Part shown: piece by piece, positions 37,397 to 49,024 of the stretch
Layout of the letters: every line of letters starts with the position of its first letter
Numbering within the stretch: the stretch's first letter is position 1
From: Acuticoccus sediminis
Lineage (GTDB): Bacteria; Pseudomonadota; Alphaproteobacteria; Rhizobiales; Amorphaceae
Assembly (NCBI RefSeq): GCF_003258595.1
Contig: NZ_QHHQ01000003.1
Location: forward strand, 682,001 to 746,000
Reading direction: 5' to 3'
Length of the DNA: 64,000 nt
The notes under the pieces: model-generated
What the model was told of the DNA's origin: nothing
The model's input: only the letters and a program-made list of their open reading frames with translations
Database searches by the model: none
Translations under genes and position numbers: made by a program

Positions 37397-37489
37397 GGAG
37401 CCGTGGGTGAGTGGCTGAAACCGGCGGTTTGCTAAACCGTTAAACGGGGTCAACCCGTTTCGAGGGTTCGAATCCCTCCGGCTCCGCCA
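37397..37489 (+). tRNA. tRNA-Ser (anticodon GCT), CCA encoded
   Basis: A 93-base cloverleaf. The acceptor arm GGAGCCG pairs with CGGCTCC (37479-37485). The anticodon stem GCGGT/ACCGT closes the loop TTGCTAA with anticodon GCT, which reads AGC and AGU. A long variable arm (CGGGT...ACCCG type) and the T-loop GGTTCGAATCC follow, then G and an encoded CCA. Its 3' 19 bases are the left attachment site of the island, and the tRNA remains intact. Confidence 0.97.
37471..37489. repeat. attL: 19 bp tRNA-Ser 3' end
   Basis: The sequence AATCCCTCCGGCTCCGCCA at the tRNA 3' end recurs exactly at 49006-49024. It is the crossover duplication left by the integrase encoded immediately downstream. Confidence 0.92.
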
Positions 37490-37602
37490 GCTACGCATTC
37501 GGTAACGTCCGCCCACGTCCAAAACCCGCAGAGTTCCTGGGCCTCGCCTCTTGCGGGTGTCCATCGGCGTCCGCAACTATGTGCCCATATCCGGGGATCG
37601 CG

Positions 37603-37631
37603 TTAGGCACCCCGTTAGGCACATGAGGCAC
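37603..37631 (+). repeat. Left cluster of TTAGGCAC repeats (probable integrase arm sites)
   Basis: TTAGGCAC occurs at 37603-37610 and 37615-37622, with TGAGGCAC at 37624-37631. The same octamer with the same 12-base step recurs near the right end at 48911-48955. Such clusters inside both ends of an element are typical arm-type binding sites of tyrosine integrases. Here they also lie in the integrase leader, which suggests autoregulation. Confidence 0.65.
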
Positions 37632-37636
37632 GCGGG

Positions 37637-38788
37637 ATGGCTGGAAGGCTCACGGCGACCCAGGTGAAGGCCCTCGACGAGGGGCGCCACGCCGATGGCG
37701 GCGGGCTGTATCTTCACGTGAAGCCGGGCGGGTGGCGCGGCTGGAAGTTCATTACCAACAAGGGTGGCAGGCGGCGCGAGAAGGGCCTGGGGGCTTTCCC
37801 CAAGGTAACCCTCGCCGATGCACGCAAGGCCGCAGCGCGCATCCGCCTCGCGATGGATGATGGTGAAGACCCGTTCGCCAAGGCTGAGGCTGCACCGACT
37901 GTCCCCACCTTCGCCAACGCGGCCGAGCAGTTCATCGACGGCATGGAGGCCGGGTGGAAGAACCCGAAGCACCGCCAGCAGTGGCGCAACACGCTCGACA
38001 CCTACTGCAAGCCGATGGCTGACAAGAGCGTCGCCGAGATCGACACCAACGACGTGCTTGCCTGCCTCACCCCGATCTGGACGGCGAAGGCCGAGACCGC
38101 CTCTCGTGTTAGGGGCCGGATCGAACGCGTTCTAGACTTCGCCCGTGCGCGAGGATGGCGGAACGGTATCAACCCTGCCCTCTGGCGCGGCCACCTCTCG
38201 GCGATCCTACCCGCAGCCGGCAAGCTCAAGCGCGGCCACCACGGCGCCATGCCTTATCCCGACGTGCCGGCCCTCATGAAGACGCTCGCCGAACGCCGAG
38301 GGACGGCAGCTCGCGCCCTCACTTTCACCATCTTGACCGCAGCACGGAGTGGCGAGGTCCGCGGTGCGACCTGGGCCGAGATCGATCTGGACAAGGCGGT
38401 GTGGATCGTCCCTGCCGATCGGATGAAAGCCGGGCGCGAGCACCGGGTTCCACTCTCGCCCCCCGCTCTCGCCGTCCTCGAAGCCCTGCCCAAGGGCGGA
38501 CCCGATGCGCTGGTGTTCCCCGGCCAGAAGAAGGACCGGCCGATGAGCGACATGACGCTCGGCGCCGTCCTCAAGCGCATGGAGCTAAACAACTTCACCG
38601 TTCATGGCTTCCGTTCCTGCTTTTCCACATGGGTGACAGAGTGCACCGACGCGACGATCGAGGTGCGTGAGGCGGCGCTGGCCCATGCGGCTGGGGACCG
38701 GGTGGCCGCAGCCTATAACCGTTCCGATCACTTCGCGAGACGGCGCGCGTTGATGGATGACTGGGCTACATATTGCGGGCTGGTATGA
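37637..38788 (+). CDS. int: Tyrosine-type site-specific integrase
   Basis: A 383-residue phage-type integrase. It has the N-terminal DUF4102 arm-binding domain (GGGLYLHVKPGG), a core-binding helical domain (about 90-175) and a catalytic domain with Arg237 (AARSGEVRG), a lysine in the MKAG beta-hairpin, His323-x-x-Arg326 (HGFR), His350 and nucleophile Tyr360. All catalytic residues are present, so it should be active. It is encoded 150 bases from the tRNA, pointing inward, and its end overlaps the next gene as ATGA. Confidence 0.95.
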   Translation: MAGRLTATQVKALDEGRHADGGGLYLHVKPGGWRGWKFITNKGGRRREKGLGAFPKVTLADARKAAARIRLAMDDGEDPFAKAEAAPTVPTFANAAEQFIDGMEAGWKNPKHRQQWRNTLDTYCKPMADKSVAEIDTNDVLACLTPIWTAKAETASRVRGRIERVLDFARARGWRNGINPALWRGHLSAILPAAGKLKRGHHGAMPYPDVPALMKTLAERRGTAARALTFTILTAARSGEVRGATWAEIDLDKAVWIVPADRMKAGREHRVPLSPPALAVLEALPKGGPDALVFPGQKKDRPMSDMTLGAVLKRMELNNFTVHGFRSCFSTWVTECTDATIEVREAALAHAAGDRVAAAYNRSDHFARRRALMDDWATYCGLV

Positions 38789-39258
38789 TGAAGTTAGCTG
38801 ATCATCACCGCGAACAGTTGCAGAAGATGGACCCGCACCTACGCAAAGCTTTTGAAGACGCAATTAGCGACGACTCAGGCCGTTCGATTCAACGTCTATG
38901 GTCATCACTGTTGCACGTTTCGACTGAGGAAGGCGATAGAGAGAGGTTGCTTAGTCTTATTGCGTTACTCCTAAGAACTGGCACCGTAGATGGTGACCTG
39001 TCTATAGAGCTGGCTAGCGCAATGGAGACGCCTCAGCGCAGGGGCCGCCGCGGTGATGTTGATCAATCGCTTCGCATCTGCGTGGAGGTCGCAGGCGCAT
39101 ACAACAGGCAACCTCAAGAGCGGCGCAAGCTTGAGGCTGCGAAGCAGGAGGTCGCGGACAAATTCGGGATGTCCTTCGACAAGGTCCATCACATATGGCG
39201 CAAATGGGAGCCATTGCTCAGGCGAGAATTAGAGCGAATTATCGCCCCCGATAGTTGA
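38785..39258 (+). CDS. Unknown island protein with C-terminal helix-turn-helix-like segment
   Basis: A 157-residue protein, not recognised. It is charged and probably all-helical. The C-terminal part (QEVADKFGMSFDKVHHIWRKWEP) looks like a DNA-binding helix-turn-helix, so a regulator or small-terminase-like role is possible. Codon use and base composition are clearly less GC-rich than those of its neighbours, which suggests separate acquisition. It starts within the stop codon of the integrase gene. Confidence 0.65.
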   Translation: MMKLADHHREQLQKMDPHLRKAFEDAISDDSGRSIQRLWSSLLHVSTEEGDRERLLSLIALLLRTGTVDGDLSIELASAMETPQRRGRRGDVDQSLRICVEVAGAYNRQPQERRKLEAAKQEVADKFGMSFDKVHHIWRKWEPLLRRELERIIAPDS

Positions 39259-39317
39259 TGCCACGGTTCGGCTGATGTGTATTGTTCGTGACTGTCCAAC
39301 GAATGGAAAGGGCAGTC

Positions 39318-39533
39318 ATGGACATCGACCACAACGCTTTGCGTCCGATCACGGTGCAGCTGAAAGATGCGCACAAGATGATCGGCATCGGCCGTACAAG
39401 CTTTTACGACCTGATGAAGCGCCCGGAATTTCCGCGCCCCGTCGAGATCATTCCCGGCCGTAAGAGCTTCGTCGTCTCGGAAATCGAACAATGGGTTGCG
39501 TCTCGCCTCGCAGCGCGCGGGGAGGCCGCGTGA
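39318..39533 (+). CDS. alpA: AlpA-family helix-turn-helix regulator/excisionase
   Basis: A 71-residue protein with the AlpA/MerR-like winged helix: KMIGIGRTSFYDLMKRPEFPRPV, then KSFVVSEIEQWVASRLA. AlpA proteins activate integrase or excision genes in phages and satellites, and are a standard part of Gram-negative phage-inducible islands. The ATG has GGAAAGGG six bases ahead; the 60-base gap before it probably holds a promoter. Its stop overlaps the next start. Confidence 0.88.
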   Translation: MDIDHNALRPITVQLKDAHKMIGIGRTSFYDLMKRPEFPRPVEIIPGRKSFVVSEIEQWVASRLAARGEAA

Positions 39534-39931
39534 TGGGCGTCCGCGAGGAAGTGCTGGCGGCGGTGGTCGCCGTCTACGCCGACGCCGAAGCTCAGGGGCT
39601 CGACGGCTGGAAGGCCTGCGAGACGGCGTTCCCCGGCATCCCGACCGACGTGATCGTCAATGCCATGATCGAGGTGACGAACCGCCAGACCGAGGCGTGG
39701 TGGTCTCAGGTTGAGCGCACCATCGACGTGAAGGTGTTGCACCGCGCGATCACCGCGGCCGGCTCCGAGACGGATGAGGATGAGGACGACGACGGCACAG
39801 ACGACGAGGTGGAGACGATCTCGGTGTCTAATGTCCGATGTGTCGGCGCGCTGCTAAATGGGCGCTTGGTCGACCCCGCCGAGCACGACAAGTGGATGTC
39901 CGATCGCCTCGCGAAGAGGGGGGGCAAGTGA
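39533..39931 (+). CDS. Unknown small island protein with acidic segment
   Basis: A 132-residue protein, not recognised. The N-terminal half is helical (VREEVLAAVVAVYADAEAQG). A run of Asp and Glu follows at about 80-95, and a basic C-terminus ends the protein. It overlaps the stop codons of both neighbours (TGATG junctions), so it is translationally coupled within the small-gene run between alpA and the replication-type gene. Confidence 0.65.
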   Translation: MGVREEVLAAVVAVYADAEAQGLDGWKACETAFPGIPTDVIVNAMIEVTNRQTEAWWSQVERTIDVKVLHRAITAAGSETDEDEDDDGTDDEVETISVSNVRCVGALLNGRLVDPAEHDKWMSDRLAKRGGK

Positions 39932-40161
39932 TGGCTAAGGACCACGACCTCGCCCTGCGCGACATCTGCGATGAGTACTGCCGGCTTGAAGACCGGATCC
40001 GCTTCTACACTGCCGGGGCGGAGTCGATCGCCGGCGACGCGCTCGACGGCTACGAATTGGACCCGTTGCTGCGCGCCAGCACAGACCTTCGGGAGTTCGC
40101 GGCCGCCTTCAAGGTGCTGCTGAACGATTACCACGAGGCTCAGAAGGTGGCCAAGGAATGA
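39931..40161 (+). CDS. Unknown small island protein
   Basis: A 76-residue, mainly helical protein without a recognisable domain. The start codon overlaps the stop of the gene before it (TGATG), and its end overlaps the next by four bases. A GAGGGGGG-type site precedes the start. Tight coupling is the main evidence that it is real. Confidence 0.62.
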   Translation: MAKDHDLALRDICDEYCRLEDRIRFYTAGAESIAGDALDGYELDPLLRASTDLREFAAAFKVLLNDYHEAQKVAKE

Positions 40162-40373
40162 GCGCCTTGGACCTGGGGACCGCACTCATCAACATCACGG
40201 TCGGCAAGCTGAAGGGTACGGGCACCTGGGTGGTGCTCGACGATCACTCGCTGATCTACGCCGAGTTCCCGACCCTGCGTGAAGCACGGGCCGGTGCGAG
40301 AGCCGCAGCGTCCGAGCTGCGGCGTGAGGGCTTCCACTTCGTCTGCATCGACGACCTGTGGGAGGAGCGATAG
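40158..40373 (+). CDS. Unknown small island protein
   Basis: A 71-residue protein with a short beta-rich N-terminal half (GTWVVLDDHSLIYAEF) and a helix (LREARAGARAAASELRR). Not recognised. It overlaps the previous gene as ATGA. Its end carries the GGAGGAG site of the following gene. Confidence 0.62.
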   Translation: MSALDLGTALINITVGKLKGTGTWVVLDDHSLIYAEFPTLREARAGARAAASELRREGFHFVCIDDLWEER

Positions 40374-40374
40374 G

Positions 40375-40635
40375 GTGAAGCCCGACAAAGAAAACCCGGC
40401 GACCGCCATTGGGGGTGAGCGGCGCCGGATCGAAGATGCACTGCAATGTTGTCGTGAGGGCGACGGTAACGCCGTCGTCCCCTCGGCGCAAGTCCATGCC
40501 GCTGCCGAGGCGCTGGTCATGACATCACCGACGCCCAAGCCAGCGGTGCCATGGCTGCGGCAGACGTTCGGCCTGACGGTATCGGAGGCGTGTCAGGCCA
40601 TCACCCTCGCTAGGGCTGCGAGGGCGGTCAAATGA
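40375..40635 (+). CDS. Unknown small island protein (GTG start)
   Basis: An 86-residue protein, not recognised. The GTG start is fixed by GGAGGAG seven bases upstream. The C-terminal part (LRQTFGLTVSEACQAITLARAAR) could form a helix-turn-helix. It overlaps the next gene as ATGA. Confidence 0.6.
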   Translation: MKPDKENPATAIGGERRRIEDALQCCREGDGNAVVPSAQVHAAAEALVMTSPTPKPAVPWLRQTFGLTVSEACQAITLARAARAVK

Positions 40636-41126
40636 AGCGGGGAGGCCGCAGCAAGGGCCATGGCGAGGATCACTTCACCAAGATGATCCGACACACAATG
40701 GAGGAGCCCGCTTGGCGGGCTCTTTCTCCGACCGCGCAGGCTCTCTACCCATGGCTCAAATTGGAGTGGCGCGGGGCACAGGCGAACAACAACGGCAAGA
40801 TCCGCCTCTCCACCCGGCAGGCTGCCGATCGGATTGGCGTGACGCCCGACACGGCAGCGCGCGCCTTTCATGACCTCCAGGCCAAAGGCTTCATCGTCCA
40901 GACGGAGCACGCTCGCCTCGGTATAGACGGTGCTGCCTGTTCACCTGCCTATGAGATCACCGAGTTGAAGTTGCCCGCGAGCGACAAGCAGGACGGCCGC
41001 AAGCTCTACCGCAACTGGAGGCCCGGTGCTGACTATCCCGTACACCGGACGAACGCCAACAACCCCAAGGGGCGCAACGGCCGCAAGGCGACGGGTAACG
41101 TGGTGAAGCTCAACCCCAAAATTTAG
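40632..41126 (+). CDS. Winged-helix protein, probable replication initiator or regulator of the island
   Basis: A 164-residue protein with a winged helix-turn-helix at about 55-100 (LSTRQAADRIGVTPDTAARAFHDLQAKGFI) preceded by an LSPTAQALYPWLKLEW helix. This pattern occurs in replication and regulatory proteins of alphaproteobacterial plasmids and prophages. The five phased 17 bp repeats begin six bases after its stop codon, the usual arrangement of an initiator gene and its origin. No primase or helicase domain is visible, so host enzymes would be needed. Confidence 0.65.
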   Translation: MKRGGRSKGHGEDHFTKMIRHTMEEPAWRALSPTAQALYPWLKLEWRGAQANNNGKIRLSTRQAADRIGVTPDTAARAFHDLQAKGFIVQTEHARLGIDGAACSPAYEITELKLPASDKQDGRKLYRNWRPGADYPVHRTNANNPKGRNGRKATGNVVKLNPKI

Positions 41127-41131
41127 AACCT

Positions 41132-41269
41132 GTCATAGAAATCATGACGCCCCTGTCGTAGAAACCATGACGGATACGCTCTGCCTGTCATAGAAATCAT
41201 GACACGCCGACATAGAAACCATGACGGATCGGGCCATTTGAGCCTGCCACCCGTCATAAAAACCATGAC
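41132..41269 (+). repeat. Five iteron-like 17 bp repeats, probable origin or operator array
   Basis: Copies at 41132-41148, 41155-41171, 41187-41203, 41209-41225 and 41253-41269 follow the consensus GTCATAGAAAYCATGAC, with at most three changes. Start-to-start distances are 23, 32, 22 and 44 bases, close to two, three, two and four helical turns. Each copy is itself an inverted repeat, GTCAT-N7-ATGAC. The array lies between the winged-helix gene and the morphogenesis operon. The stretch 41270-41460 beyond it has no gene and should contain the promoter of the head operon. Confidence 0.85.
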
Positions 41270-41460
41270 ATCCTTATCTTACCACGTAGTGGAGCCTAGC
41301 TGACAGCACGTCTGAAGGCAGGCAATGGTCCCTTGGACGGGCTCAGTCACCCTCGAAAACAAAATTTGCCGCTGGCCCCCAAGGTTGTGGAAAGGGCCAC
41401 CCTTGATTGCGCACACGCCTGCACTGATGTACAACCGGGATACCAGTATAGAGGCAGCTT

Positions 41461-41814
41461 GTGTCCATCCTTCTCGGCCCACTCGCGAGCGAACTCACCG
41501 CCGCCCTTGAGGCCGAGGGCGTGCCGTATGACATCGTGGTCACGCGCACGGTGACGACTGGTGGCGACCCGTGGAACCCGACGACCGAGGACGTGGATTA
41601 TCCATGCCGTGGCTGGCGTGACGCATGGATGCAGGGCGAGGTGGACGGCACGCTGGTCCTGCAGAGTGACAGCAAGATTGTCGTCCTGGCGCTGTCCATC
41701 GGCATCGTCCCGACGACCGCCGACACCATCACCCTGGATGGGCTGACCTACGCCATCATCGACGTCAGTGCTGACCCCGCTGGGGCGACGTTCACCGTGC
41801 AGGCCCGCCGATGA
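41461..41814 (+). CDS. Phage head closure / head-tail joining-like protein
   Basis: A 117-residue protein starting with GTG. A helical start (LASELTAALEAEGVPYDIVV) is followed by a beta-barrel region with VLQSDSKIVVLAL and ADTITLDGLTYAIIDVS, the layout of siphophage head-closure proteins. These close the portal-connector ring before tail docking. It is the first gene of the morphogenesis module. The assignment rests on fold-like pattern and position. Confidence 0.65.
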   Translation: MSILLGPLASELTAALEAEGVPYDIVVTRTVTTGGDPWNPTTEDVDYPCRGWRDAWMQGEVDGTLVLQSDSKIVVLALSIGIVPTTADTITLDGLTYAIIDVSADPAGATFTVQARR

Positions 41815-41920
41815 GCGCACTGTGTGCATATCTGGTCCCAATACCCAAAGTTGTGACGACGGGAGGGCTCGCGGTGTGGGTCTTTCTTTCTCGCTACCTC
41901 CTCGGTTCAGGGGCCCGCTG

Positions 41921-42325
41921 ATGGCCAGGGACTCCTTCTCCAAGGCGGTTGATGACTGGATCGCCAAGGCCGAACGCCGCCTGGACGAGGTGGTCGCCCG
42001 GTCGGCACACGACGTCGTCGCCGAGGCTCAACGCCCTCGCGCTGCTGGTGGTCGGATGCCTGTCGACTCCGGTCAGTTGCGCCGGAGCCTACGCGTGAAG
42101 ATTGACGGCACGGTGCGCGCGACGGGGAGCGAGGCTTCGGTAGCGGCGCTGCTGATGAAGGCGGGGCAGACGCTGACGGCGGAGTGGACCGCGAAGTATG
42201 CCGCGCACGTGGAGTTCGGGACCGGTCAGAAGGGACCGCGTGAGCCGGCAGCATTCGCCCGTGGTGCCATCGAACAATGGCCCCGGATCGTGAGGGCCAA
42301 CGCGCTCAAGGTGTCCCGCAAATGA
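41921..42325 (+). CDS. HK97 gp10-like connector protein
   Basis: A 134-residue protein with the HK97-gp10 family signature: MPVDSGQLRRSLRVKI in the middle and YAAHVEFGTGQKGPREP near the end. In phages, gp10-type proteins complete the head-tail interface or the tail terminator. The ATG at 41921 follows a 106-base gap without a gene. Its stop overlaps the start of the terminase gene as ATGA. In an island without a tail it would be the last part that meets the helper's tail. Confidence 0.85.
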   Translation: MARDSFSKAVDDWIAKAERRLDEVVARSAHDVVAEAQRPRAAGGRMPVDSGQLRRSLRVKIDGTVRATGSEASVAALLMKAGQTLTAEWTAKYAAHVEFGTGQKGPREPAAFARGAIEQWPRIVRANALKVSRK

Positions 42326-43824
42326 AGTCGGCCACCCTCGCAACCCGCTTCTTGACCTCGTTGGAGATCCCCGAGGGGCCCATGGCGGGCCGGCCGTTGA
42401 AGCTGGCGCCGTTCCAGAAGTCCTTCATCAAGGGTGCGCTCTCCGATGACGTGAACATCGCCTGCCTCAGTGTCGGCCGCGGTAACGGCAAAACCGCACT
42501 GTCGGCCGGCCTCGCCCTCGGTGCTCTACTCGGTGTGTGGGATACTCAGCCCCGGCGCGAAATCCTGGTGGCGGCGCGAACGAGGGATCAGGGGCGCATC
42601 GCCTGGACGTACATCGAGGGCCTTGCCCGCTCGCTGCCGGATGAGCTGCGCGCCCGGCTCCAGTTCCGCCGGTCCCCGATCCTGTCGGTCACCCTCGACA
42701 ACGAACATGAGATTCGTGTGCTGGCTGCGGACGGCAAGTCAGCCCTCGGCACGTCGCCGACCTTCGTGTTGATGGACGAGCGCGGCCATTGGGCGCTCGA
42801 CAAGGGCGACGCGCTGGAGCACGCGCTGCTGACCGGCCTGGGCAAGAGGAACGGCCGGGCGCTGATCATCAGCACCTCGGCGAGCGACGACGCGCACCCG
42901 TTCAGTCGCTGGCTGGATGAACCACAAAACGGCGTATTCGTTCAGGAGCACAGACCCGCTCCGGCCCTTCCTGCAGACGACCGCGAAAGCCTCCTCATCG
43001 CCAACCCCGGCGCCAAGGGTGGCATTGGTGCGAGCCTCGAATGGCTGGAGGCGCAGGCCCGGCGCGCCATCGCCCGCGGCGGCTCAACCCTCACGTCCTA
43101 TCGCCTCTATCACCGAAACGAACGTGTCGCGGCCGAGGATCGCGACACGCTGCTGACGGTGGATGAGTGGCTACAGTGCGAGGTGGCCGACCTTCCGCCG
43201 CGCTCCGGCCCGTGCGTCATCGGGATCGACCTCGGCGGATCGGCGAGTATGTCGGCGGCGGCGTATTACTGGCCCGAGTCGCACCGGCTCGAAACACGGG
43301 GCTGGTTCCCCTCCAAGCCCTCTCTCCTGGATCGCGGACAACGGGATGGTGTGTCCGACCGCTACGTGCAGATGCACGACCGCGACGAGCTGGCGACCCT
43401 CGGCGATCAGACCGTGCCAGTGGCGCCCTGGCTGGCCCAGGTGCTCCAGCACGTTGCCGGCGAGAATGTCGTGGCCATGGTGGCCGATCGGTTCAAGCAA
43501 GCCGAACTCGGCGAGGCGATGGACAAGGCCGGTGTCCGCATCCCGATCATCTGGCGCGGCATGGGCTTTAGGGACGGCGGCGAAGACGTCGAGCGATTTA
43601 GGCGCGCTGCCTACGATGGGGCAGTGCTCTCAATGCCCTCGTTGCTGATGCGCTCGGCGATCGCCGATGCGGTCGTAATACGCGATCCGGCCGGGAACGC
43701 GAAGCTGGCGAAAGGCCGGTCGCTTGGTCGGATCGACGCCGCGTCGGCAACCGTCCTGGCCGTGGCCGAGGGTGCCCGCATGCTGGGCCGCACACAGCCA
43801 ACGCGGAAGGTGTTCTGGGCATGA
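42322..43824 (+). CDS. terL: Phage terminase large subunit
   Basis: A 500-residue packaging motor. The ATPase domain has Walker A SVGRGNGKT (50-58) and Walker B FVLMDE (148-153). The nuclease domain has metal-binding aspartates at Asp303 (GIDLGG) and Asp389 (VADRF). Length and motifs are complete, so it should cut and pump DNA into the island's own capsid. No separate small terminase was recognised near it. The gene overlaps both neighbours. Confidence 0.92.
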   Translation: MKSATLATRFLTSLEIPEGPMAGRPLKLAPFQKSFIKGALSDDVNIACLSVGRGNGKTALSAGLALGALLGVWDTQPRREILVAARTRDQGRIAWTYIEGLARSLPDELRARLQFRRSPILSVTLDNEHEIRVLAADGKSALGTSPTFVLMDERGHWALDKGDALEHALLTGLGKRNGRALIISTSASDDAHPFSRWLDEPQNGVFVQEHRPAPALPADDRESLLIANPGAKGGIGASLEWLEAQARRAIARGGSTLTSYRLYHRNERVAAEDRDTLLTVDEWLQCEVADLPPRSGPCVIGIDLGGSASMSAAAYYWPESHRLETRGWFPSKPSLLDRGQRDGVSDRYVQMHDRDELATLGDQTVPVAPWLAQVLQHVAGENVVAMVADRFKQAELGEAMDKAGVRIPIIWRGMGFRDGGEDVERFRRAAYDGAVLSMPSLLMRSAIADAVVIRDPAGNAKLAKGRSLGRIDAASATVLAVAEGARMLGRTQPTRKVFWA

Positions 43825-44114
43825 GGTGTAGTCGTCACATCACCCGCACCAAGCGGTGGGCGAGGCTCCGCTGGGAGATCCTGCGGCGCGACGACTTCCA
43901 TTGCACCGCGTGCGGCGCCCACGCCACCAAGCTTGAAGTCGATCACCGTCACCCGGTTCGCACGCGGCCCGATCTGGCTTGGGACCCGGCCAATCTCCAA
44001 ACTTTGTGCGCCCCGTGCCATTCCCGAAAAACCTGCCTCGAACAGGGGCGAACTCTCCCCAACCCCGACCGCCTCGCGTGGGCGGCACTACTACGTGAGG
44101 ACGTGAAATGCTGA
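43821..44114 (+). CDS. HNH endonuclease of the packaging module
   Basis: A 97-residue HNH nuclease. Zinc-binding cysteines are Cys28, Cys31, Cys63 and Cys66. The catalytic HNH core is Asp41-His42, Asn58 and His67. HNH proteins encoded beside the terminase are needed for DNA packaging in HK97-like phages and are kept in capsid-forming islands. It overlaps terL by four bases and the capsid gene by seven. Confidence 0.92.
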   Translation: MRCSRHITRTKRWARLRWEILRRDDFHCTACGAHATKLEVDHRHPVRTRPDLAWDPANLQTLCAPCHSRKTCLEQGRTLPNPDRLAWAALLREDVKC

Positions 44115-45382
44115 CAAGTGTGCGAATCCAGCGCCGACAGTCGGAGATCCGACAGGCGCTCGCCCCGCTGGTGGCGAACGAAGCGCCGAACGAGGACGAG
44201 ACGCGCCAGATCGAGACGCTCGACCTGGAGTTCCGCCAGAACGAGACCCGCTATCGCGCGGCCCTGATCGCCGAAGACACCGAACGCCGCGAGGCCGGCG
44301 AGGAGCTGGAGAGCCGCAGCGATCGCGAATATGCCGACATCGTCGCCGGGTTCGAGATGCGCCAGGTGGCGCTCTACCTGGACGAAGGGCGCCAGTTCAA
44401 CGGCCGCACCGCCGAGGTGGTGACCGAGCTGCGCAACCAGGGCGGCTTTCGGGGTGTCCCGGTTCCCTGGCAGGCCCTTGAGGTTCGCGCCGGTGAGACG
44501 ATCGCCAGCGGCACGCCGGACCCGATCTCGACGCGCCCGATCATCGATCGCCTGTTCCCCGACACCGCCGCGGGCCGCATTGGCGCGCAGATGATCAGCA
44601 TCGACAGTGGCGCAGTGGAATGGCCCGTCACGACTTCCAGCGTGTCGGCAGGCTGGGCCGATGGCGAGACGGCGAACGTGGCCGGACCCACGACCTATGC
44701 CACGACCGATCGGGCGATGTCGCCGGACCACAACCTGGGCATTCAACTGCGCGTGACCCGCAAGGCGATCAAGCAATCGGGCGCGGCGCTGGAACAAGCG
44801 ATCCGGAGGGACATGGCCGGTGCCATGGCGGTCGAGATGGACCGGGCGGTGTTCCTCGGCACCGGCGCCAATGGTCAGCCGCTGGGCGTGATCACTGGGG
44901 CGGCGACCTACGGCATCACGTCCACCGACGCGGGCGCAATGGCTGACTGGTCCGCCTTCCGGGCTGCGGTGGTCCGCTTCATGACGGCCAACGCTGCGGG
45001 CTCGCCCTCGGCGGTGAAGGCTCTGATCCGTCCCGAGATGTGGTCCGTTTTGGACGCGACTCTGGTGTCCGGCACGGCCGTCTCCGAGTGGGACCGTCTG
45101 CTGAAGAACATCCCCGTCGGCAACATCGCGATGACGACGAACGGCCTCGCCGCTCCGTCCGGTGATCCGCTGGAGACGCAGTCGCTCCTCACCACATCGG
45201 CCGGCGGTGTCGCCCCGATCTTCGTCGGTGCCTGGGGCGCGATTGACGTCGTCCGCGATCCCTTCAGCGACGCGCAGTCCGGCGGGCTCCGCATCACCGC
45301 CCTCGCGACGCTGGACCTCACGGTGGCTCGCCCGGCTCAGCTCGAACTCATCACCGGCCTCGAGCTGGAAGCGGGCGTCTAA
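44108..45382 (+). CDS. HK97-family major capsid protein
   Basis: A 424-residue protein. Residues 1 to about 85 are a charged coiled coil, the delta/scaffold domain normally cut off by the prohead protease. The HK97-fold shell domain follows, with family blocks around LFPDTAAGRIGAQMIS, the ETANVAGPTTYATTD region and MDRAVFLGTGANGQPLGV. The presence of a scaffold domain next to a protease gene indicates a functional maturation pathway. Confidence 0.92.
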   Translation: MLTSVRIQRRQSEIRQALAPLVANEAPNEDETRQIETLDLEFRQNETRYRAALIAEDTERREAGEELESRSDREYADIVAGFEMRQVALYLDEGRQFNGRTAEVVTELRNQGGFRGVPVPWQALEVRAGETIASGTPDPISTRPIIDRLFPDTAAGRIGAQMISIDSGAVEWPVTTSSVSAGWADGETANVAGPTTYATTDRAMSPDHNLGIQLRVTRKAIKQSGAALEQAIRRDMAGAMAVEMDRAVFLGTGANGQPLGVITGAATYGITSTDAGAMADWSAFRAAVVRFMTANAAGSPSAVKALIRPEMWSVLDATLVSGTAVSEWDRLLKNIPVGNIAMTTNGLAAPSGDPLETQSLLTTSAGGVAPIFVGAWGAIDVVRDPFSDAQSGGLRITALATLDLTVARPAQLELITGLELEAGV

Positions 45383-45384
45383 CC

Positions 45385-46008
45385 ATGCTCTTCGGCGGCG
45401 CCATAGGTGAACTAGAGCTGCGGCGCGATAGCCGCGGCACGGGGCGTCGCCTCAAGGGGCGGTTCCCCTACAACCGGCTTGCTGTCCTGTCGGACGGCGG
45501 GCGCAACGGCGGACGGCCGCGCAAGGAACGCATTGCACCGCGGGCGTTCTCCTACCGCGTGGAGAGGCCCGACGAGGAAATCCACCTGCTGGTCGGTCAC
45601 TCCTATGACCGGCCCCTGGCGTCGCGGAACAATGACACGCTGACGCTTCGCGACACTGACGAGGCCCTGACCTTCGACGCGAACATCGTGCCGGAGGTTC
45701 AGGAGGCGCCCTACGTCCAGGACTTCCTGGCGGCCTTCAGCGCGGGACTGATCAGAGGCATCAGCCCCGGCTTTCGCATCCCCCCGCCGAGGACGGTTCC
45801 CGACGCCGAGAAGGTGGAGGAGGAGGACCCCGCCGAGGGCACCGCGCTTATCCGAACCATCTTCGAAGCGCTCCTTTACGAGCTTTCGCTGGTGACGGTC
45901 GCTGCCTACCGCGAGGCCACGGCCGAGGAGGCGCGGAGCTGGGATATGGCCCTTTCCGGCCTCATGGTGCCGCCGTCCCGCCACGTCCTGCACCGTTGGA
46001 GGCTCTGA
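45385..46008 (+). CDS. HK97-type prohead serine protease
   Basis: A 207-residue protease with His72 in LLVGHSYDRPLASR and Ser168 in LYELSLVTVAAYREA, the positions of the caudoviral prohead protease dyad. It removes the scaffold domain of the capsid protein after shell assembly. It lies two bases after the capsid gene, whereas in HK97-like phages the protease normally precedes the capsid. Its stop overlaps the next start (TGATG). Confidence 0.9.
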   Translation: MLFGGAIGELELRRDSRGTGRRLKGRFPYNRLAVLSDGGRNGGRPRKERIAPRAFSYRVERPDEEIHLLVGHSYDRPLASRNNDTLTLRDTDEALTFDANIVPEVQEAPYVQDFLAAFSAGLIRGISPGFRIPPPRTVPDAEKVEEEDPAEGTALIRTIFEALLYELSLVTVAAYREATAEEARSWDMALSGLMVPPSRHVLHRWRL

Positions 46009-46541
46009 TGGCCGAGACGCTAATGCAGACCGAGGACGTACCGGAGAGCTACCCCCTCGAACCGTCAGGGCTGTCTGACGGCGCTGCCGCACTCGATACG
46101 TCGGTCGTGTGGGGCCGGATCGAGAACTACGTGATCGCCCGCTGGAGCGTGCGCCCGGTGACGTGGATCGTGGAGGGTGAGGGCGATTGGTCCCCGCCTC
46201 TGACGCCCGCGACGATCTCGCTGACGGAACGGTGGACCGGTGAAGCGTGGGTGGAGGAGACGCTGCCCACGGGGCCGTTCGGCTACTGCATCCCCTGCGG
46301 TGGGCCGTGGCGCATTACCGCCAGTGTCGGCGATACCGAGGCCCCCGAACCTGCCCTGGAGGCTTACCGGAGGCTCGCTGAATATATGGCGGCCACACCC
46401 GGTAAGCCCGGCGCCATCAGTGAGAGCGTCACGGCCGGGTCCGTCTCCATCACGCACCGTCGGTCGCCCTCGTGGATCGCCGACGCCCTCCGCAACAGCG
46501 GTGCGGCGGATCTTCTACGCCCATATCGGAGAGTGGCATGA
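46008..46541 (+). CDS. Head-tail connector protein (gp6-like)
   Basis: A 177-residue protein. The C-terminal part (EAYRRLAEYMAATPGKPGAI and SPSWIADALRNSGAADLLRPYRRV) matches the closing helices of HK97 gp6-like head-tail connectors, which form a ring under the portal. The N-terminal half is less typical. It overlaps the protease gene before it and the portal gene after it. Confidence 0.75.
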   Translation: MAETLMQTEDVPESYPLEPSGLSDGAAALDTSVVWGRIENYVIARWSVRPVTWIVEGEGDWSPPLTPATISLTERWTGEAWVEETLPTGPFGYCIPCGGPWRITASVGDTEAPEPALEAYRRLAEYMAATPGKPGAISESVTAGSVSITHRRSPSWIADALRNSGAADLLRPYRRVA

Positions 46542-47617
46542 GGTGGCCCTGGCAGAAGCGTGAAGGTGTCACGGAAACCGTGATGCCTCACGAGACGCGC
46601 GCCAGCGGCTCCGGCTTCACGGCCGAGCTGATCGGGATGCGCGAGGCGTACATCAGCGGCGCCCGCGGCATGGCCGAGCTTACGGGGACTGCTCAGACCT
46701 GCATCACCATGTGGGAGAATGGCTTTGCCCTCGCCGACGTGGAGGGGACGGACCTCCTCAGCCGATCGGTGATGGCGGCCACGGCGCGCTCGCTGGCCCT
46801 ACGCGGTGAGGCGGTATGGCTGATCCGTGACGACGGCCTCGTGCCGGCGGTGGACTGGGAAGTGAGCACGCGTGATGGGTTGCCACGGGCCTACCGCCTG
46901 TCGATCCCCGACGCGGGCGGCGGTCACACCGAGACGGCACTGGCGGCCGAGGTGCTGCACTTCCGGACTGCGGTGGACATGGCGGCGCCCTGGTACGGCT
47001 CCGCACCGCTCCGGCGGGCTCGGCTCTCGGCTGGACTTCTCCATGCCCTCGAAACCGCCCTCGGTGAAGTCTACGAGGCGGCGCCGATCGGTAGCATGAT
47101 CGTCCCGCTACCGGAGTCGAGCGAAGCTGACATGAACGCCCTGACGCGGTCGTTCAGAGGATCGCGGGGCCGTGTTCTGGTCCGTGAGAGCGTGGCCGTG
47201 CAGGCGGCCGGTGGACCGGCTCCGGCGCAAGACTGGCGCCCAAATGACTTGTCCCCGGATTTGGGGAAAACCATGGCGCTGGAGGCCCTGGAGGCGGCGC
47301 GGGGCAGCATCTTCGCAGCGTTCGGTGTTCTCCCCGCCATGTGGGCCTCGAACGCGCAAGGGCCGCTCGTGCGCGAGGCGCAGCGGCATCTGGCGCAGTG
47401 GGTGCTCCAGCCGATGGGCGTCCTGATGGCCGAGGAGGCGTCCACCAAGCTCGGCACCCCCGTATCTGTGGACGTGGTGCGGCCTACCCAGGCATTCGAT
47501 GCCGGCGGGCGGGCTCGTGCCTTCGCTACCATGGTTGCCGCTATCGCCCAGGCAAAGGAGGCGGGGCTGGACCCCCAGGCCATCGAGGACTCGTTCAAGT
47601 TCATCGACTGGGAATGA
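46538..47617 (+). CDS. Phage portal protein (HK97 family)
   Basis: A 359-residue portal. Typical features are the short basic N-terminus (RWPWQKR), ISGARGMAELTGTAQTC, the wing region LRGEAVWLIRDDG, LAAEVLHFRT with the following YGSAPLRRA loop, and the stem/clip region around EAARGSIFAAFGVLPAMW. The portal ring is the entry for DNA and the dock for connectors. Here it is the last head gene, downstream of the capsid, instead of following terL. Confidence 0.9.
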   Translation: MRWPWQKREGVTETVMPHETRASGSGFTAELIGMREAYISGARGMAELTGTAQTCITMWENGFALADVEGTDLLSRSVMAATARSLALRGEAVWLIRDDGLVPAVDWEVSTRDGLPRAYRLSIPDAGGGHTETALAAEVLHFRTAVDMAAPWYGSAPLRRARLSAGLLHALETALGEVYEAAPIGSMIVPLPESSEADMNALTRSFRGSRGRVLVRESVAVQAAGGPAPAQDWRPNDLSPDLGKTMALEALEAARGSIFAAFGVLPAMWASNAQGPLVREAQRHLAQWVLQPMGVLMAEEASTKLGTPVSVDVVRPTQAFDAGGRARAFATMVAAIAQAKEAGLDPQAIEDSFKFIDWE

Positions 47618-47618
47618 G

Positions 47619-48230
47619 ATGCTCGCCCGTGCTCCCTGGTCGCCTCCAACGAAGGCGGCCAAGCCGAAGCGGCGGAAGCTCAACGAGGCGAAGCGGCGTC
47701 AGATGGTGGACACCGTCGCCAACATCATCCGGGCGGGCATGGAGGCCGGCGCTCCGTCCCGGTTCGCATTCGAGGCATCATGCCGCCACGGTATCCGCTC
47801 CGGCCTCTGTGAAGATGGCTGGCCTTGGCACGATGCTGACCTAGCTGCAGGCGACGTGGTGTCCCGAGCGCTGGCGATGACCGGTGCGACCCGACCGACA
47901 TGGAAGGAGGGGCAACCGGAGTGGACACAGGACGGCGCCCTGCCGATCGAACGCGAGCGCTGCATCCGGTGCGCGAAGCCGCTGCCGGAGGGGCATTGGA
48001 AGTTCTGCAGCGTGGTGTGCAAGGACGCCCACCGCAACGACCGTCGGGATTTGGACGCGGCGGCCGAGAACAACGTGCGGCGCGAGGCACTGCGGTCGGC
48101 ATGGTCGGCACAACAGCCAAAGCGCGAGTGCGAGGGCTGCGGGGGCATGTTTCGGCCACGCACCCCAACACAGCGATTTTGCCGGAACCAGTGTATCGGC
48201 GTAGCAAGGCGGGCAGGTCGATGGCGTTGA
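47619..48230 (+). CDS. Zinc-ribbon protein with two CxxC pairs sets
   Basis: A 203-residue basic protein, not recognised as a whole. It holds two predicted zinc sites: Cys115, Cys118, Cys130, Cys134, and Cys171, Cys174, Cys188, Cys192. The first half is helical and lysine-rich. It starts two bases after the portal stop and overlaps the next zinc-ribbon gene by ten bases. Position after the head genes suggests a role late in the cycle, such as packaging specificity or transcription control; this is inference. Confidence 0.65.
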   Translation: MLARAPWSPPTKAAKPKRRKLNEAKRRQMVDTVANIIRAGMEAGAPSRFAFEASCRHGIRSGLCEDGWPWHDADLAAGDVVSRALAMTGATRPTWKEGQPEWTQDGALPIERERCIRCAKPLPEGHWKFCSVVCKDAHRNDRRDLDAAAENNVRREALRSAWSAQQPKRECEGCGGMFRPRTPTQRFCRNQCIGVARRAGRWR

Positions 48231-48631
48231 AGCTGGATGACTTACCAGACGAGTTTTGCGAGCGCTGCGGCACCCCGATCGAGACCCACCTCAGCTACCG
48301 TCGCTTCTGCAGCGGGCGTTGCAAGCGGATGGTGTACTACCGGGAAGCGCACCCGGTGGAGCCGCGGACCTGTGCCGGATGCGGTGTGACGTTCCTGCCT
48401 CGCCGGAGCGATGCGAAATACTGCAGCCCGAAATGCGGCAACGCGGTCCGCAATCCCTTCAACGTCGCCGTCTATCGCGAAGAACGGTTGAAGCAGATCG
48501 CCGGTCGGACGTGCGCCCAATGCGGCACCACGTTCGACGCTCGGCGGCGGGATCAGATCTACTGCAGCGAGCGGTGTGGCAAAGCGGCCTCCAAGGCCCG
48601 CCAGCGCGCCAAGGCGGCCAAGGAGAACTAG
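48221..48631 (+). CDS. Triple zinc-ribbon protein
   Basis: A 136-residue basic protein built of three successive four-cysteine units: Cys13/16/30/34, Cys51/54/68/72 and Cys98/101/115/119. Each has the same C-x2-C-x13-C-x3-C spacing, so the protein arose by repeat duplication and is related to the second site of the gene before it. The C-terminal tail is Lys/Ala-rich and ends in AKEN. Nucleic-acid binding is likely. Its stop codon lies inside a 17 bp direct repeat. Confidence 0.68.
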   Translation: MALKLDDLPDEFCERCGTPIETHLSYRRFCSGRCKRMVYYREAHPVEPRTCAGCGVTFLPRRSDAKYCSPKCGNAVRNPFNVAVYREERLKQIAGRTCAQCGTTFDARRRDQIYCSERCGKAASKARQRAKAAKEN

Positions 48632-48866
48632 AGGGAGAGCGCGACGAGAACGAGGTTCGTAAGGACTTTACCGTTTCGGAGCGGGTGGCGATCGGGCGGG
48701 CCGTCGAAGAGCTTATCGGCAAGCGCCAGGGGCAACGGACGGACAAGGAACTTCGGGACAATTGTCCCGAAGTTGAGCCAGGCAAGAGGACGTCAGAGGT
48801 CGCAGCGGATCGCGCCGGCTTCGACAGCTACAAGAGCTACGAACGCGCAAAGGAGAACTAGAGGGA
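48620..48866 (+). repeat. 17 bp direct repeats flanking the ParB-like fragment
   Basis: AAGGAGAACTAGAGGGA occurs at 48620-48636 and again at 48850-48866. Each copy contains a stop codon in frame with the gene before it, and both proteins therefore end in Ala-Lys-Glu-Asn. The repeat encloses exactly the ParB-like fragment, which points to insertion or replacement by recombination at these sites. Confidence 0.75.
48637..48861 (+). pseudogene. C-terminal fragment of a ParB-like/phage methyltransferase-associated protein
   Basis: The frame reads DENEVRKDFTVSERVAIG and later RQGQRTDKELRDNC, EVAADRAGF and SYKSYERAKEN. This pattern is familiar from the middle of ParB-like nuclease and adenine-methyltransferase-associated proteins of alphaproteobacterial phages. 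No start codon with a ribosome binding site lies ahead of it, and the N-terminal ParB domain is missing. It is therefore a remnant, unless expressed from an internal GTG. It sits between the 17 bp repeats. Confidence 0.55.
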
Positions 48867-48910
48867 AGTCCGATCGGCTACGAAAAGAACGGTGGATGAA
48901 CACGGAATCG

Positions 48911-48955
48911 TTACGCACCACCGAATATTAGGCACAATGTTAGGCACTAAGGCAC
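48911..48955 (+). repeat. Right cluster of TTAGGCAC repeats (probable integrase arm sites)
   Basis: TTACGCAC at 48911-48918, TTAGGCAC at 48928-48935 and 48940-48947, and TAAGGCAC at 48948-48955. The 12-base step between the two exact copies equals that of the left cluster, and both clusters have the same orientation relative to the map. Confidence 0.65.
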
Positions 48956-49005
48956 ATTCAACGAACTATAAGCCAATAATATCAAGAGCTTAGTAGACAG
49001 ATCTT

Positions 49006-49024
49006 AATCCCTCCGGCTCCGCCA
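49006..49024. repeat. attR: 19 bp copy of the tRNA-Ser 3' end
   Basis: Exact copy of the left site, preceded by unrelated sequence. It marks the right boundary of the integrase-bearing island. Excision between the two copies would restore a single tRNA gene. Confidence 0.92.

Follow-up and report, generated by a model that had tools for sequence, protein, structure and literature searches.

The window analysed here is a 64,000-nucleotide stretch of Acuticoccus sediminis (contig NZ_QHHQ01000003.1, positions 682,001 to 746,000; genome of 7.76 Mb). It holds an island which the original prediction had described as a complete satellite related to the capsid-forming phage-inducible chromosomal islands (cf-PICIs). 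The island spans positions 37471-49024 (11,554 bp) between two exact 19-bp attachment (att) repeats, AATCCCTCCGGCTCCGCCA, located at 37471-37489 and 49006-49024. The left copy forms the 3' end of a tRNA-Ser(GCT) gene (37397-37489, + strand, ARAGORN), the integration target, and all island genes lie on the + strand. A tyrosine integrase (37637-38788) matched three Pfam domains over cut-off (PF22022, 1.5e-27; PF13356, 1.3e-16; PF00589, 1.4e-13), and together with the exact repeats this bears out the claim of intact ends. The claimed AlpA-type regulator or excisionase was also recovered (39318-39533; PF05930, 9.3e-9; the frame is open from 39282, the start being that of the gene caller). In Acuticoccus mangrovi an island with a large terminase subunit (TerL) 87% identical to that of the window (locus L127) is bounded by the identical 19-mer at the identical tRNA-Ser. 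Two further congeners (G159 and G064) keep the left flank and the tRNA-Ser at 77-79% and carry no such island there, the island of G159 being located at a tRNA-Arg instead. The right flank was not found in either within the roughly 1.5 kb examined, and the putative empty integration site is only half shown.

The central part of the island encodes a head and packaging module, and all of its profile-based assignments agree with the original prediction. It starts with a head closure protein, Hc1 (41461-41814; phrog_161, 1.5e-18), and a neck or tail-completion protein resembling HK97 gp10 (41822-42325, start perhaps at 41921; phrog_169, 1.4e-15; TIGR01725, 3e-7), followed by TerL (42322-43824; phrog_9, 5.8e-55, and placed in a tree described below). 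TerL is 26.5% identical to that of HK97 and matched the solved terminase 6z6d at 1.7e-49, which we take to be the HK97 enzyme. An HNH endonuclease missed by the gene caller (43821-44114; PF01844, 1e-8) is a probable packaging partner. The major capsid protein (44108-45382) has the HK97 fold (PF05065, 5.1e-16 at residues 160-415; TIGR01554, 1.8e-14 at residues 28-295; solved capsid 8gta, 6.4e-9), and its N-terminal part probably serves as a scaffold domain. A prohead protease of the S78 type (45385-46008; PF04586, 1.1e-14) and a portal protein (46538-47617; PF04860, 1.9e-11) complete the set. For the predicted connector between them (46008-46541), no match was obtained in Pfam, PHROG or NCBIfam; the assignment comes from its relatives, as hhalign links this connector type to a gp6-like adaptor at 70.9% (E 3.8e-5; unrelated control, 0.5%), and the protein is therefore a putative head-tail connector.

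The predicted replication gene with its repeat array held up in part. The array consists of five near-palindromic 25-bp repeats (41129-41274, D1 repeat family) directly 3' of a gene at 40632-41126, and gene and array align jointly with another island (L122) at 74%. The gene itself gave Pfam winged helix-turn-helix matches that are weak and below cut-off, and has a 75% homologue in a further island (L013). We consider it a likely replication initiator and the repeats a likely origin or operator.

Relatives of the island are scattered over a large bacterial group. Of 397 genomes of the order, 10, counting that of the window, have a TerL relative of at least 58% identity; below these the identity drops to about 33%. 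The portal profile was positive at E ≤ 1e-30 in 3 of 385 genomes from the class and at E ≤ 1e-20 in 6 of 398 from the phylum, every positive genome belonging to the same class. Among named genomes 211 loci encode a relative. Hosts of the best 80 of these are mostly Rhodobacteraceae and other Rhodobacterales, joined by Hyphomicrobiales, Reyranella and Hyphomonas/Ponticaulis and by one representative each in Pusillimonas and Salinisphaera. The TerL is also encoded by 179 stretches in IMG/VR, and 78 of the best 80 that were kept lie on contigs of at most 14.6 kb. The family is widespread and apparently undescribed: no description was found in titles and abstract openings on cf-PICIs, satellites and the alphaproteobacterial hosts, a search that did not reach the original cf-PICI and SatelliteFinder papers. 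In line with the original prediction, the lineage is absent from the cf-PICI hosts named in the accessible part of the published description.

Flanking repeats were sought around 88 non-duplicate genome loci, the window included, and 62 islands could be delimited, the criteria being a span of 8.5-13 kb and a repeat that was at least 16 bp long or overlapped a tRNA. These islands measure 9,317-11,731 bp (median 10,380, standard deviation 522), and 55 of them are located at a tRNA, with 21 anticodon classes represented. The size limits hardly shaped this spread, as only one tRNA-overlapping best repeat fell outside them, that of a locus reduced to TerL and integrase (L196); a 5.9-kb locus with a 16-bp repeat and no tRNA (L184) was dropped from the set. 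All 62 islands share the order TerL-HNH-capsid-protease-portal and carry an integrase, and in all 62 the HNH profile matched between TerL and capsid. The original prediction had named a lack of conserved tail-less homologues as one finding that would count against it; the layout is conserved throughout.

The connector comes in two types, the window type in 35 of the 62 islands and the gp6-like adaptor in 27, never both and never neither. We considered whether this exclusion reflects many independent swaps and rejected the idea: on a core tree of 59 islands only two changes are needed, so that connector type is mainly a lineage trait, and Fisher p-values for the exclusion overstate the effect for the same reason. 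On the same tree closure type requires at least 16 changes, with the class "none" depending on profile sensitivity, and the side of the integrase requires 12.

A tail module was not recognised anywhere in the delimited family. The open reading frames (ORFs) of the window island were scanned with Pfam, PHROG and NCBIfam, the small ones with Pfam only, and matched no tape measure, tail tube, fibre, holin, lysin or CI-type family, as had been claimed; the only tail-named matches belong to the head-tail interface, namely the gp10 family and Phage_attach for Hc1. The non-core genes of 75 delimited islands, viral contigs included, were then represented by one protein for each of 213 gene clusters (at least 60 aa). 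Pfam at E ≤ 1e-4 returned 18 + 14 families for these representatives, concerned with replication, regulation, connectors and head completion, and no tail, lysis or small terminase (TerS) family. The islands could in principle be tiny autonomous phages whose tail genes have diverged beyond recognition, and several island genes (zn1, zn2 and small ORFs, described below) indeed have no assignment. However, BLAST clustering found no unassigned gene common to more than 25 of the 62 islands. This count makes a conserved but unrecognised tail improbable, even if diverged families may be broken up by this kind of clustering, and hidden conserved tail genes were rejected as a candidate. Just three non-core genes exceed 500 aa, all in one helicase/primase-like cluster. 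Autonomy is therefore very unlikely.

The head genes are under purifying selection. Median dN/dS was 0.11 for TerL (309 pairs), 0.13 for capsid (144), 0.12 for protease (53) and 0.11 for portal (147), and 0.24 for the connector (16), 0.15 for the gp6-like adaptor (25) and 0.27 for Hc1 (4), the pairs being non-independent and restricted to similar sequences. In 59 of the 62 islands TerL, capsid and portal each occupy one full-length frame; the other three have split core genes. Since selection acts on the head genes, the island is not a decaying prophage. A defective prophage that lost its tail genes by deletion would explain the HK97-type head genes, the locus reduced to TerL and integrase and the three islands with split genes. 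It would not explain why the same tail-less layout and size recur in 62 islands across many genera, why TerL, capsid, protease and portal retain such low ratios, or why no tailed phage record carries the island TerL (best listed identity 28.7%). We rejected this explanation on selection and conservation; it is largely refuted and has next to no probability left.

The head genes seem to form a lineage of their own. A TerL tree was built from 60 rows, including 35 islands picked as diverse from 82. The islands fall on one side of a branch with SH-aLRT support of 100 and a stem of about 4 substitutions per site, and their closest neighbours, at about 30% identity, are three loci from the order of the window genome. 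The lone gram-positive cf-PICI-like comparator, a locus (L207) judged by its gene list, falls outside the island clade on a very long branch, and long branches make its place unsure. A hit in Proteus (H44) considered as a gammaproteobacterial comparator was rejected as an HK97-like prophage with a 1,104-codon frame of tape-measure size. Among 50,697 phage records the best listed matches were 28.7% for TerL (30 of 95 rows listed) and 29.5% for capsid (15 of 30 rows listed), and the window portal was unmatched at E 1e-5. The portal of the gram-positive cf-PICI-like element, used as a control, matched 1,704 records of this collection. Compared with the head, certain neck proteins lie closer to alphaproteobacterial siphophages (TerL and capsid about 30% or less among the rows listed, portal none): the window gp10 is 38% identical to that of Paracoccus phage vB_PkoS_Pkon1, and the Hc1 of kit 2 is 50% identical to that of Paracoccus phage Shpa.

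The original prediction had taken the island for a compact member of the cf-PICI class, and this part was not supported. The resemblance is considerable: like the cf-PICIs in the accessible portions of their published descriptions, the island is integrated, carries integrase, AlpA, its own HNH, TerL, capsid, protease, portal and head-tail connectors, and lacks tail genes. Published cf-PICI descriptions, as far as these portions go, also include a small terminase and a Pri-Rep primase, and because both were sought in the window copy and not found, the island was not filed as a cf-PICI. Pfam, PHROG and NCBIfam gave no primase match among the window ORFs; some relatives have helicase/primase-type genes, and at least one gene cluster in the relatives is a Prim-Pol/D5-type primase, which speaks for membership. 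A P27-type TerS profile built from four sequences found no open frame at E ≤ 1 in 170 family loci; of 21 control loci not used for training, many of them with little flanking DNA, it matched 5. A TerS of an unrelated type may be present. The gene order differs as well: HK97 has TerS-TerL-portal-protease-capsid, the last three of which stand in reverse in the island (capsid-protease-portal), and the gram-positive cf-PICI-like element has portal before capsid. Moreover, the TerL stands apart from that of the gram-positive element, itself on a very long branch, and the median of 10.4 kb compares with a mean of 14 kb published for cf-PICIs. That the island is a merely divergent and compact member of the known cf-PICI family is thus unlikely; it probably works like a cf-PICI, and a distinct family fits better.

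Other known systems share parts of this design. HK97-type siphophages have a related TerL, an S78 protease and an HK97-fold capsid, whereas the island has no tail, no detected TerS and about a quarter of their genome size. According to the available part of their description, the cf-PISP and PISP elements of Vibrio, measuring 15.8 and 11.1 kb, likewise encode head but not tail proteins; unlike the island, they persist as episomes and carry genes for plasmid maintenance. In that study, which used about 900 capsids, the capsid of the cf-PISP groups with those of gammaproteobacterial cf-PICIs, and cf-PISPs were found only in Vibrio (PMC13230959). The Streptomyces satellites MulchRoom and MiniFlayer, as partially accessible accounts describe them, have their own head and packaging genes like the island, and the tail of MulchRoom seems to be helper-encoded; they differ in having virulent helpers, terminal repeats and a small terminase, and no significant homology to cf-PICIs was reported for them.

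Taken together, the island is very probably a phage satellite, intact and integrated, from a separate family that builds its own head and borrows a tail, and the broader claim of a capsid-forming, tail-less, integrated element that is probably a satellite is supported. Upon arrival or induction of a helper, the island would excise by means of its integrase and AlpA and replicate from its own initiator and repeats. Its capsid, protease and portal would build a small head, which the TerL and HNH nuclease would fill with island DNA and the connector and closure proteins would cap. As the island has no tail, an infective particle would need a foreign tail and lysis, presumably supplied by a co-resident or infecting tailed phage.

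Several observations weigh against this interpretation. By HK97 standards the packaging set is incomplete, as no small terminase was found. AlpA was recognised by profile in 17 of the 62 islands and head closure in just 33. Nor does every neck protein agree with tail borrowing: the window Hc1 has only weak phage matches (29-35%), and a gp6-like adaptor representative had none in the phage collection. With respect to tails in relatives, which the original prediction had named as the other finding against it, none was seen in the gene-called islands, with two reservations: a 243-aa gene (L202:15415-16143) matches a section of tape-measure proteins, which no other individually scanned protein did, and among 107 proteins there was a single PHROG "tail fiber" match, whose gene was not traced. 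The PHROG matches of relatives cover 25 of 87 and 25 of 64 families; the gene caller misses some small genes, the window HNH among them, so that the scan of 213 proteins is not exhaustive; and the tail scans covered the delimited islands, leaving out 26 undelimited loci.

The steady island size of about 10.4 kb agrees with a model value of 11.8 kb (8.1-17.1) for T=3 capsids of about 43 nm, in a study whose abstract describes it as puzzling that T=1 and T=3 tailed phages are lacking (PMC7762592). A T=3 shell thus fits as a prediction from genome size. The fuller proposal, an independent alphaproteobacterial satellite lineage of near-constant 10 kb that forms T=3 HK97-fold heads and packages by TerL and HNH without TerS, is possible but rather doubtful. 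On the satellite interpretation, the 62 repeat-bounded islands would place capsid-forming satellites in a large bacterial group from sea and soil, for which the literature searched yielded none. The family would also supply a natural set of HK97-fold heads of about 10 kb for the question of the "missing T=3 tailed phage" and a packaging system without a recognisable small terminase. With a conserved head and varying connector and closure proteins, rules of head-tail compatibility become testable.

The genome itself offers candidate helpers. A locus resembling a tailed prophage on contig C5 (about 55000-80000) has TerL and TerS-like genes as well as a tape-measure domain (PF10145, 5.8e-52), another tape-measure match lies on C3, and C6 carries a head-tail cluster (about 78900-91200) that its gene families lead us to take for one of the gene transfer agent (GTA) type. 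The C5 locus and the C6 cluster are possible tail donors. Searched against its own genome, the window Hc1 found only itself and a marginal profile match (0.01) on C8, and the window connector had no profile match among the elements on C5, C6, C3, C4 and C8; no helper could be named, because no resident element matches either protein. If the donor were the host GTA instead of a phage, the island would still package itself. The C6 cluster, found besides the tailed-prophage-like loci, and the alphaproteobacterial centre of the family are compatible with this, and the gp6-like adaptor profile matches C6 (1.6e-18) and C5 (3.2e-20) about equally. On the other hand, the window's own connector type matches neither, and the family also occurs in Pusillimonas and Salinisphaera, for which we know of no such GTA. 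GTA tails are accordingly a highly improbable source.

The remaining ORFs of the island are small. A frame with a weak helix-turn-helix match near its C end (38773-39258, of which the gene caller took only 39082-39258) follows the integrase. Three small overlapping ORFs (39533-39931, 39931-40161 and 40158-40373) lie after AlpA, the second of which (orf5) has relatives in two further distinct islands (L127 and L122). A short open frame at 40378-40635, not called as a gene, has related frames in L117, L122 and L155. Downstream of the portal are a zinc-finger/HNH-like protein, zn1 (47619-48230; phrog_1271, 4e-6), a zinc-finger protein, zn2 (48221-48631; NinG-like, 3e-6), each present in 11 of the 62 islands, and a small ORF without Pfam match (48634-48861). 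PADLOC on the 213 non-core representatives matched three families with one protein each and revealed no clear defence cargo.

Other elements were observed alongside the family. Paracoccus sp. 2205BS29-5 harbours three different family islands (L197, L203 and L206) at tRNA-Phe, tRNA-Asn and tRNA-Arg. In the window genome, a second integrated element of 17.3 kb (C4:204001-221390; L210, L125) is bounded by a 48-bp att repeat at tRNA-Arg(TCT), the counterpart of which is occupied in G159 by the window-type island. It has zn1 (53%) and orf5 (58%) in common with the island. Its head genes are accompanied by TerS and TerL, and it encodes an 896-aa protein that is a candidate tape measure; PF10145 had no match there and no further tail-like gene was seen. 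At the start of contig C8 (1-20000; L126), near tRNA-Lys, another element has genes for TerL (26%), a TerS-like protein and connectors, an integrase similar to that of the island family (profile 1e-75), AlpA (5e-9) and a weak gp10 match (2e-4). A 17,494-bp circular "plasmid" of Paracoccus marcusii (L209, NZ_CP157016.1) encodes a replication protein, portal, capsid, connectors, TerS and TerL with no annotated tail, and may be an alphaproteobacterial satellite-plasmid whose head belongs to another lineage. The gram-positive comparator (L207, pCF11) is a 13.8-kb "plasmid" of Lacticaseibacillus with a cf-PICI-like gene set, and its portal is 94-95% identical to those of PV668529 and OP869847, which are filed as 14-kb phages.

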